From contig WRBL01000022.1 of NCBI GenBank assembly GCA_009784565.1, forward strand, positions 1 through 35,114: DNA of 35,114 nt. Direction: 5' to 3'. The DNA is from Streptosporangiales bacterium. Lineage in GTDB: Bacteria > Actinomycetota > Actinomycetes > Streptosporangiales > Streptosporangiaceae. Position numbers and translations under genes: made by a program. Below the pieces are notes generated by a model, which was given only the letters and a program-made list of their open reading frames with translations, searched no databases and was not told the origin of the DNA. This document shows, piece by piece, positions 3,564 through 13,742 of this stretch (position 1 is the first letter of the stretch; the number at the start of each line of letters is the position of its first letter).

Positions 3564-4490
3564 ATGCGACTTGGGGTGCTGGACGTCGGCTCCAACACGG
3601 TTCACATGCTGGTGGTTGATGCGCACCCGGGCGCACGGCCTCTGCCAGCGTTCTCCCACAAGGTTGACCTGCGCCTGGCCGCCCAGATCGAGGATGACAA
3701 CCGGTTGTCCGAGGATGGCGCCAAGCGGCTGGAAGAGATCGTCGCGGAGGCGGTAGGCATCGCCGAGGACAAGGGCGTCGAGGACTTCCTGTCCTTCGCC
3801 ACGTCCGCGGTGCGGGACGCCGTGAACGGCGAGGAAGTGCTGGCCGGAATCGCCGAGCGGACCGGGGTAGAGACCCGGGTGCTGTCCGGCGAGAGCGAGG
3901 CGCGGCTTACCTTCCTGGCGGCGCGGCGCTGGTTCGGCTGGTCCTCGGGGCGGCTGCTGCTGTTCGACATCGGCGGCGGCTCGCTGGAGGTGGCCGCCGG
4001 CCAGGACGAGGAGCCGGAAGTGGCGATGTCGCTGCCCCTGGGCGCCGGGCGGCTGACCCGGGACTGGCTGAGCGACGATCCGCCGTCGTCGGACGAGGTG
4101 CGGGCGCTCCGCCGGCACGTGCGGGCGGAGATCGCCCGGTACGCCGGGCAGTTCCTGCGCGGCGGGAGCGCCGACCACGCGGTCGGGACGTCCAAGACCT
4201 TCCGGCAGCTGGCCCGGATCGCCGGCGCGGCCCCGTCGAGCGAGGGCTTCTACACCAAGCGCTTCCTGAAGCACAGCGACGTCAGCCTGTGGGCCGAGCG
4301 CCTGGCCGCCATGACGCGCGACGAGCGGGCCCGGCTCCCCGGAGTTTCCGAGGGGCGCGCCGGACAGATGGTCGCCGGCGCGATCGTGGCCGACGCCGTC
4401 ATGGACCTGATGGGCGCCGAACGCCTGGAAATCTGCCCCTGGGCCCTCCGTGAAGGCGTCATTCTCAAGCGCCTGGACACTCTCAGCTAA
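3564..4490 (+). CDS. ppx: Ppx/GppA family exopolyphosphatase
   Basis: A 308-aa actin-fold phosphatase that cleaves terminal phosphate from polyphosphate or removes the pppGpp gamma-phosphate. It shows the phosphate-1 motif [14 protein letters not shown] (6-19), the catalytic glutamate region [10 protein letters not shown] (E112) and the phosphate-2 motif DIGGGSLEV (135-143). At about 308 aa it is the short, Mycobacterium Ppx1-like form, without the C-terminal HD domain of E. coli Ppx. The ATG at 3564 is fixed by GGAGG at 3552-3556. The frame extends upstream to 1848, but that region is antisense to other genes. Its presence in a window with phoU and pst genes suggests phosphate homeostasis, though it is 10 kb away. 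Confidence 0.92.
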
Positions 4491-11471: not shown

Positions 11472-11942
11472 ATGACCGGAGTCATCGTCCTGATCGTCGC
11501 GCTGCTGGTGGCGGTGGCGGCAGGACTCGTGCTGAAGGCCCGCTCGGGGAAAGTCCAGTCCTTCGACCGAACGGATCATGGCGATTCGCCCGGGATATCG
11601 ACCTCTGTGAATGTAATCACAGGGGATGACCTTGGCGAGCCCCTGGGGGAGCGGGCGACCCTGGTCCAGTTCTCGACGGAATTCTGCGCGTTCTGCCCCC
11701 AGACCCGGGTGCTGCTGACCGGGCTGTCGGCCGAGCATCCCGGGGTGAAGTTCGTCGAAGTCGACGCTGCGGAAAACATGGACCTGACCAGGCGTTTCAA
11801 GGTTTTCAGTACTCCGACGGTGCTGGTGGTGCGCCCGGGCGGCGACATCGCGGCCCGCTCCTCGGGGAAGCAGCAGAAGGCCGAGATGAGCCAGGCGCTC
11901 CAGTCGGTCCTGGATGACGCAGGTCACGGGGCCAGGTGGTGA
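11472..11942 (+). CDS. Membrane-anchored thioredoxin-family protein
   Basis: A 156-aa protein with an N-terminal membrane helix (VIVLIVALLVAVAAGLVL, residues 4-21) and a thioredoxin domain from about 44. The redox motif is C72-A-F-C75 within STEFCAFCPQTR, instead of the WCGPC of classical thioredoxin. The cis-proline loop is FSTPTVLVV (P115). Because the motif is CAFC rather than CGPC, an electron relay to a partner rather than general thioredoxin activity is likely. The neighbouring DUF4395 protein with CLGC and the sulfurtransferase resemble the mycobacterial ThiX (Rv0816c) neighbourhood. The membrane topology depends on the single helix and could place the domain on either side. Confidence 0.85.
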   Translation: MTGVIVLIVALLVAVAAGLVLKARSGKVQSFDRTDHGDSPGISTSVNVITGDDLGEPLGERATLVQFSTEFCAFCPQTRVLLTGLSAEHPGVKFVEVDAAENMDLTRRFKVFSTPTVLVVRPGGDIAARSSGKQQKAEMSQALQSVLDDAGHGARW

Positions 11943-11967
11943 CAGAAGCGTCCCGGACGCATAACAT
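11939..11967 (+). promoter_or_regulatory. Promoter of the cysteine-rich leader and sulfur operon
   Basis: GTGACA (11939-11944, five of six to TTGACA) and TAACAT (11962-11967) are exactly 17 bases apart. The GTG of the leader peptide begins 7 bases after the -10 box, so the transcript should start with the start codon. The -35 box overlaps the thioredoxin stop codon. Confidence 0.65.
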
Positions 11968-11974
11968 CTGGGGT

Positions 11975-12157
11975 GTGTCTCCCCGAATCCCGCAGTTGCT
12001 GACCAAGCGTCGCGCTGTGGACTTCTGCCTGGTCGCCACGGCCATTTGTTGCGCCGTACGCGGCGCCGCCGTGTTATCCGGGGACACACATCCGGCCCCG
12101 GAGCCTGGGCGGCGCATACGTGTCCGTTACCAGTGTCCGGGAGCATTCACTTCATGA
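11975..12157 (+). CDS. Cysteine-rich leaderless leader peptide of the sulfur operon
   Basis: A 60-codon ORF starting at a GTG that sits 7 bases after a good -10 box. Its N-terminal part, QLLTKRRAVDFCLVATAICC, matches the pattern of actinobacterial 'putative leader peptides' ahead of sulfur genes (LLTxRRxVDLCRVxxAIC). The Cys codons, including a tandem pair TGT TGC, come about 20-30 codons in. In mycobacteria, leaderless polycysteine ORFs upstream of cysA2-type operons act as cysteine-responsive attenuators. Here the ORF runs further than usual, and its TGA overlaps the ATG of DUF4395 (ATGA), which suggests that downstream translation is coupled to it. A longer frame from 11936 lacks start support. 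Confidence 0.72.
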   Translation: MSPRIPQLLTKRRAVDFCLVATAICCAVRGAAVLSGDTHPAPEPGRRIRVRYQCPGAFTS

Positions 12158-12564
12158 TTGATTCGCGCGGCCCGCGCTTCGGCGCGGCCATCACCACTGT
12201 GGTGCTGGCGATCGTGCTGGCTACCCAGAGCGGGTGGCTGCTCTTCGCCCAGACGCTGGTGTTCGCCGTAGGGGCGATCGCCGGCCTGCGCTACGCGCCC
12301 TACGGCCTCATCTACCGCAATCTGGTCCAGCCCCGGCTCGGACCGCCCGCTAAGACAGAAGCCGAGGCCCCGCCCCGCTTCTCCCAGGGCGTAGGCATGG
12401 TGTTCGCCGGAGTCGGCTCGCTGGGCTTCGCCCTCGGAGTACCCCTGGTGGGGCTGATCTTCGCGGCGTTCGCGCTGATCGCGGCGTTCCTGAACGCCGT
12501 GTTCGACTATTGCCTCGGCTGCCAGATGTACCTGATTATCCAGAGGTTCCGTACGGCCGCCTGA
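12154..12564 (+). CDS. DUF4395 membrane protein with CxxC
   Basis: A 136-aa membrane protein of the DUF4395 family. It starts IDSRGPRFGAAITTVVLAI, a family signature, has about four hydrophobic helices (11-30, 31-46, 80-97, 98-116) and ends with DYCLGCQMYL (C120 and C123). The CxxC at the membrane edge next to a thioredoxin-family gene suggests thiol transfer, an inference. The ATG at 12154 overlaps the stop codon of the cysteine-rich leader. There is no strong independent Shine-Dalgarno sequence, so it probably depends on re-initiation. It is followed 24 bp later by the sulfurtransferase gene. Confidence 0.87.
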   Translation: MIDSRGPRFGAAITTVVLAIVLATQSGWLLFAQTLVFAVGAIAGLRYAPYGLIYRNLVQPRLGPPAKTEAEAPPRFSQGVGMVFAGVGSLGFALGVPLVGLIFAAFALIAAFLNAVFDYCLGCQMYLIIQRFRTAA

Positions 12565-12588
12565 CGGCCGCGAGGAGGTTAAAACCCA

Positions 12589-13431
12589 ATGAGCCGCACC
12601 GACGCCTTGGTCGACGCTGACTTCGTCGAGTCCAAGATCGGGCAGTCCGGTTTCGTCATCGTCGAGGTCGACGAGGACACCAGCGCCTACGAGAAGGGCC
12701 ACATCCCGTCGGCCATCCGGATTGACTGGAAGAAGGACCTGCAGGACCCGGTCCGCCGCGACTTCGTGGACCAGACCGGCTTCGAGCAGCTGCTGTCCGA
12801 GCGTGGCATCGGCAACGACGACACCGTCATCCTGTACGGCGGCAACAACAACTGGTTCGCGGCCTACGCGTACTGGTACTTCAAGCTGTACGGGCACCAG
12901 AAGGTCGTCCTGCTCGACGGCGGCCGCAAGAAGTGGGAGCTGGACGCCCGCGAGCTGACCAAGGACGTCCCGCCGGTGGCCAAGACCAGCTACACCGCCC
13001 AGCCGGAGGACTCCTCGCTCCGCGCCAAGCGCGACGAGGTCATCGAGGCCATCGGCAAGCGCAACCTGGTCGACGTCCGCTCGCCCGACGAGTTCTCCGG
13101 AAAGCTGCTCGCCCCGGCGCACCTGCCGCAGGAGCAGTCGCAGCGCGGCGGGCACATCCCGACCGCCAAGAACGTTCCGTGGTCGAAGGCCGCGAACGAG
13201 GACGGCACGTTCCGGTCCGACGAGGAGCTCACCCAGCTCTACAAGGATGAGGCCGGCGTCGACACCAGCAAGGACACGATCGCGTACTGCCGGATCGGCG
13301 AGCGCTCCGCTCACACCTGGTTCGTGCTGCACGAGATCCTGGGCTTGGCGAACGTGAAGAACTACGACGGTTCCTGGACCGAGTACGGATCGCTCGTCGG
13401 CGTGCCGATCGAGCTTGGAGAGGGCAGGTAA
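12589..13431 (+). CDS. Thiosulfate sulfurtransferase (rhodanese), CysA2-like
   Basis: A 280-aa tandem rhodanese. The inactive N-terminal domain (about 8-125) contains AYEKGHIPSAIRIDW and LLDGGRKKWELD. The catalytic C-terminal domain (about 145-278) contains VDVRSPDEFSGK and the active-site loop with C234 in AYCRIGERSAHTWF. It transfers sulfane sulfur from thiosulfate to cyanide or a thiol acceptor in the cytosol. The close match to mycobacterial CysA2/CysA3 and the following sseC gene support the call. ATG at 12589 is preceded by GAGGAGG. It ends 2 bp before sseC. Confidence 0.94.
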   Translation: MSRTDALVDADFVESKIGQSGFVIVEVDEDTSAYEKGHIPSAIRIDWKKDLQDPVRRDFVDQTGFEQLLSERGIGNDDTVILYGGNNNWFAAYAYWYFKLYGHQKVVLLDGGRKKWELDARELTKDVPPVAKTSYTAQPEDSSLRAKRDEVIEAIGKRNLVDVRSPDEFSGKLLAPAHLPQEQSQRGGHIPTAKNVPWSKAANEDGTFRSDEELTQLYKDEAGVDTSKDTIAYCRIGERSAHTWFVLHEILGLANVKNYDGSWTEYGSLVGVPIELGEGR

Positions 13432-13433
13432 AC

Positions 13434-13742
13434 ATGGCTAACGACGGTTGCGGCGCGCCCGCGGGCGGCGTCACTATCACCGCCGACGCGGCCAGCAAGG
13501 AAGCGGTCATCGAGGGACGCGTCCTGTCCGGCGACAGCCCGGTGACGACCGGCTACGCGCGGCTGAAGGGAACCGGCGACGAGTTCGTCGCCGAGCTTCC
13601 GCTCGGCGAGGACGGCGGCTTCCGCTTCTTCGCCGCCCCCGGCGACTGGACCCTGGTGGTCCTGGCCCCGGGCGGCGTTCGCGAGGAGCGCTCGGTCTCG
13701 GCGGACATCGGCCAGGTCACCAAGGTCGAAGTCACGGTCTGA
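13434..13742 (+). CDS. sseC: DUF1416 / SseC sulfurtransferase-associated protein
   Basis: A 102-aa protein with the DUF1416 hallmarks: NDGCGAPAGG at the N-terminus and a small beta-sandwich (EAVIEGRVLSGDSPVTTGYARL, GGFRFFAAPGDWTLVVLAPG). It is always found next to CysA-type sulfurtransferases; its exact biochemical role is not settled. The Cys in the N-terminal motif is conserved. It is 2 bp downstream of the rhodanese gene, so they are co-translated. Confidence 0.9.
   Translation: MANDGCGAPAGGVTITADAASKEAVIEGRVLSGDSPVTTGYARLKGTGDEFVAELPLGEDGGFRFFAAPGDWTLVVLAPGGVREERSVSADIGQVTKVEVTV

Follow-up and report, generated by a model that had tools for sequence, protein, structure and literature searches.

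Positions 11975 to 12052 of the analyzed stretch of DNA (35,114 nucleotides, here referred to as the window) are likely to encode a leaderless, cysteine-containing regulatory leader of the Ms5788A kind, which would control the translation of a DUF4395-rhodanese-DUF1416 operon via charged Cys-tRNA. The leader is real and conserved and belongs to a known kind of bacterial control switch; that its stop codon overlaps the next start codon is probably the accident of one species. The cysteine response of the window leader and its sign are putative; in mycobacteria such leaders respond to cysteine according to the literature. The features of the locus are listed in Table 1.

Table 1. Position of the leader, its control elements and the downstream genes within the window
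Feature	Position	Strand	Remarks
Promoter	11939-11967	+	-35 GTGACA (11939-11944) and -10 TAACAT (11962-11967), 17-nt spacer; position of the -10 box conserved in relatives
Leader peptide core, 26 codons, VSPRIPQLLTKRRAVDFCLVATAICC	11975-12052	+	matches to NF042933 and NF042934; motif kept in relatives
Tandem Cys codons TGT TGC (C25-C26)	12047-12052	+	putative ribosome stall site
Tail of the leader ORF, 34 codons	12053-12154	+	probably not functional as coding sequence
Hairpin pairing most of the DUF4395 SD (GGGAG, 12138-12142)	12095-12145	+	-30.7 kcal/mol
ATGA, leader stop TGA (12155-12157) overlapping DUF4395 start ATG (12154-12156)	12154-12157	+	read from the sequence
DUF4395 protein (PF14340)	12154-12564	+	E = 2.3e-46
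Rhodanese-type sulfurtransferase (PF00581, two domains)	12589-13431	+	E = 4.2e-33
DUF1416 protein (PF07210)	13434-13742	+	E = 1.2e-27

Promoter and putative leaderless start

The promoter that a preliminary description of this DNA had placed ahead of the GTG at 11975 was present and was the sole sigma-70-like site in the scanned kilobase (11500-12600), where shuffled sequences contained 0.1 sites on average. Genome-wide, the pattern GTGACA-N16-18-TANNNT-N5-8-RTG was found three times, compared to none for a reversed control pattern. The stop codon of the upstream thioredoxin-like gene (11940-11942) lies within the -35 box, and the leader GTG follows 7 nt after the -10 box. A second GTG, located slightly earlier at 11973, is not in frame and gives VCLPESRSC followed by a stop. 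Further upstream, ahead of the thioredoxin gene, the segment 9945-11461 contains a gene for a sigma-70-family factor with regions 2 and 4, followed by a zf-HC2 anti-sigma-type zinc-finger gene.

For comparison, a survey identified DUF4395 in 98 genomes of the order, on 13 named contigs and, within the genus, in 7 of 8 genomes; the DNA ahead of it was read for the loci fetched. Removal of duplicates left 95 loci in which LT[KR]RRxVD is followed by Cys; nearly every close relative had this motif upstream of DUF4395. All of these 95 distinct loci, which are akin to each other and thus not independent observations, carried a TANNNT box 6-7 nt ahead of an in-frame ATG or GTG. The spacing between the -10 box and the start codon, together with its conservation, gives strong comparative support to a putative leaderless start at GTG 11975.

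The upstream sequence of one genus member (G151, L108) was identical to that of Trebonia kvetii (L095), so that the window probably derives from a Trebonia-like representative of the Streptosporangiales. Another genome (G155, L190) carried the leader and an ATG with an SD ahead of the rhodanese gene, yet the DUF4395 profile search matched nothing in it; here DUF4395 may be broken or lost.

The leader core and its family

The ORF starting at GTG 11975 comprises 60 codons (VSPRIPQLLTKRRAVDFCLVATAICC...) and ends in a TGA overlapping the DUF4395 ATG, both as initially described. Its core holds three Cys codons only, namely C18 (12026) and the tandem pair that had also been pointed out before; this pair is followed by 34 more codons, with a further cysteine, C54, in the tail (12134). 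Position C25 is a Cys in nearly all relatives.

The best library match of the leader was the NCBIfam family NF042933, "Ms5788A family Cys-rich leader peptide" (E = 2.8e-9), with a score of 36.5 bits, which falls below the curated cut-off of 45 bits. NF042934 (cis_reg_atten, "putative leader peptide") was also matched below its cut-off (E = 1.6e-4, score 21.2, cut-off 27). However, leaders with equal downstream genes in other genomes scored below the NF042933 cut-off as well (37.1-44.4 bits), and hence this cut-off does not separate orthologues. Despite the low score the window leader is, judged by motif and synteny, an orthologue of the described mycobacterial leader kind, since it carries the motif and is situated directly upstream of the DUF4395/rhodanese/DUF1416 operon as expected for the Ms5788A family. 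The proposal that the leader is leaderless, Cys-rich and similar in kind to those of mycobacteria is thus supported by the NCBIfam match, the conserved -10 spacing and the synteny. In the operon a single sulfurtransferase gene is present, not several as described initially.

The reference for the Ms5788A family of Cys-rich leaderless leaders is Canestrari et al. 2020 (doi 10.1111/mmi.14498), as cited in PMC9031893 and PMC13236596. Its members share with the window leader the core LTKRRAVD-x-C-x-VA, a start codon just past the -10 box, Cys codons toward the end of the core and the location upstream of DUF4395, rhodanese and DUF1416 genes. Unlike the mycobacterial versions, the window leader has fewer Cys codons, and its ORF runs 34 codons further until its stop overlaps the next start. 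Outside the order, in other actinomycete families, matches to NF042933 preceded rhodanese and DUF1416 genes whether or not DUF4395 was present; one of these leaders (L117) ends in CCCCCC.

The putative actinomycete leaders of NF042934 have the RR-x-VD ... C motif in common with the window leader. The genome of the window holds another leader of this general type, VRRHVDFARVRSAMC, upstream of a sulfite/nitrite reductase gene (L111, 1498-1572; G000:C123, around 3600-3720), reading MDPMLVVRRHVDFARVRSAMCRTVR and then TAA. It recurs in several members of the genus (L183-L185, L187 and L188).

Seliverstov et al. 2005 (PMC1262725) predicted leader peptides for mycobacterial cys operons but found no mechanism for them. 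Like the window leader these are short ORFs with Cys codons ahead of sulfur genes and without a conserved terminator. Their Cys runs are located near the stop codon, whereas the Cys codons of the window leader precede a tail.

Predicted pairing of the DUF4395 SD in relatives

In many relatives the nucleotides directly past the last Cys codon show complementarity to the DUF4395 SD, with different pairs in different genera (GCUUCCC/GGGAAGC, GUUUCCC/GGGAAAC). Native pairs were stronger than swapped pairs in a permutation test over 41 dissimilar lineages (p = 0.004), compared to p = 0.98 for a mid-leader control; thinning to 41 representatives lowers phylogenetic dependence without removing it. 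In a folding model of 93 loci a ribosome placed on the last Cys codon raised the mean accessibility of the SD from 0.17 to 0.26. The effect was uneven by genus, being large in some (a rise from 0.01 to 0.44 upon stalling in L071) and absent in others.

RNAalifold gave no useful consensus for the 36 sequences of cluster A1, the only alignable cluster. A helix drawn by hand on this cluster paired 88% of cells, with almost no two-sided changes and a covariation slightly above shuffles, and by itself is weak evidence for pairing. The support for SD pairing therefore is its specificity across lineages and not classical covariation.

An anti-SD beside the Cys codons fits translation attenuation, and these results on the relatives agree with the mechanism summarized for M. 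smegmatis (PMC9031893, PMC13236596). Spacing and conservation suggest that the RNA would begin on the GTG and that ribosomes would initiate directly there. Under cysteine shortage ribosomes would stall on the Cys codons. The segment directly past the last Cys codon is computed, for most relatives, to pair with the DUF4395 SD, and a stalled ribosome would uncover the SD so that the operon is translated. In the window this pairing has drifted, and the usual early stop is missing from the ORF. Against this reading speak the results in the window itself, where a ribosome on the Cys codons leaves the SD no more accessible in the folding model (0.28 free, 0.27 stalled) and neither the post-Cys nor the 5'-end pairing with the SD beats shuffles, as well as the NCBIfam scores below cut-off, the small number of core Cys codons and the scant covariation in cluster A1.

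Alternatively, translation of the leader might control an intrinsic or Rho-dependent terminator between the Cys codons and DUF4395. Rho was proposed for mycobacterial cys leaders, terminators being unseen (PMC1262725), and one weak terminator-like site is present at 12030-12044. This site falls within the leader core, though, and has no proper run of U; none of the intrinsic type was found in the spacer, the Rfam search matched no known element, and the coevolving feature in the relatives is the SD pairing. We consider such transcription attenuation very unlikely.

In this genus the anti-SD could also reside in the first nucleotides of the RNA, where initiating or queued ribosomes would uncover the SD. 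Long helices between the 5' end and the SD were predicted in L104, L106, L107 and L091 (-19 to -26 kcal/mol), and in the swapped-pair test over the 41 lineages this pairing reached p = 0.013. However, independent species are few, between 0.4 and 11% of the shuffled 5' ends match the observed energy, and the window itself shows no such pairing (p = 0.42). As an explanation of the switch this arrangement is highly doubtful; the folding hints at a relocation of the anti-SD within this genus, with no 5'-end pairing in the window. In the same four relatives the first 27 nt of the leader RNA can pair within the 30 nt before DUF4395, and the helices include the leaderless start codon (GUG with CAC, AUG with CAU). 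The 5' end TGTGTCTCCCCG can also pair almost perfectly with CGGGGACACA (approximately 12078-12088); this pairing was dismissed as specific to the window and absent in the nearest relative.

The ORF tail and the TGA/ATG overlap

Control by coupling through the long ORF and its overlapping stop had been suggested initially. The overlap does exist, but among approximately 95 distinct relatives it was found in the genome of the window only, and the tail is neither coding-like nor conserved in frame. In 90 of 93 relatives the leader frame contains a stop between the last Cys codon and DUF4395, usually few codons past the Cys, compared to just 21-22 of 93 in each of the other two frames. Since stops are enriched in the leader frame only, the relatives appear to select for an early stop there.

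The exceptions are the window and the near-identical pair L106/L107 (G153 and G154), in which the leader ORF extends 77 nt past the DUF4395 start, out of frame, so that leader ribosomes would translate across this start. In the nearest relative (L105) the leader stops 43 nt ahead of DUF4395, and in neighbouring genera stops before DUF4395 are always kept. Conservation of the overlap across the genus was thus ruled out, as the leader ORFs of the other members either end between -43 and -81 or extend 77 nt beyond the start.

The tail had a GC3 of 0.62 compared to 0.88-0.96 in the operon genes. Dinucleotide shuffles left its frame open in 66% of cases, and chance would therefore be expected to give an open tail. 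Additionally, the comparison with the nearest relative (L105/L091) revealed a 5-nt indel and other frame-breaking indels. On these grounds selection on the tail as coding sequence was rejected. An accident of the lineage is the best reading of the overlap, and the 34-codon tail together with the TGA/ATG overlap is most likely incidental.

The tail contains a rare TTA leucine codon at 12074-12076. In streptomycetes TTA is read by the bldA tRNA. Here the codon probably is incidental, as the tail looks non-coding.

A coupling of inverted sign, specific to this species, was weighed against this reading. The SD would be locked in the hairpin at 12095-12145 inside the leader ORF; it would be opened only by ribosomes that have passed the Cys codons and translate the tail, and upon terminating at the overlapping TGA/ATG these would be handed to DUF4395. 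If true, the operon would be on under cysteine sufficiency and off under starvation. The hairpin is indeed more stable than expected (z = -3.06; none of 200 shuffles as stable), the 4-nt ATGA overlap is present, and the folding model predicts a free SD only with a ribosome at codons 52-58. On the other hand the overlap occurs in no other relative, with L105 stopping short and L106/L107 overrunning the start, the tail is not coding-like, and the sign is reversed compared to the expectation from relatives. Furthermore, the hairpin is not a general feature of relatives. Because tail, overlap and hairpin are all unconserved, we retain inverted coupling at low weight and regard it as unlikely; that the switch of the window changed from stall-activated to a coupling switch of opposite sign in this species appears very improbable.

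Implications

The preferred reading of a conserved, stall-activated leader extends the mycobacterial cysteine-leader mechanism to actinomycetes of the Streptosporangiales type. That the anti-SD next to the Cys codons is specific to native pairs constitutes comparative evidence for translation attenuation. Additionally, one genus shows drift in both the length of the leader and the position of its stop.
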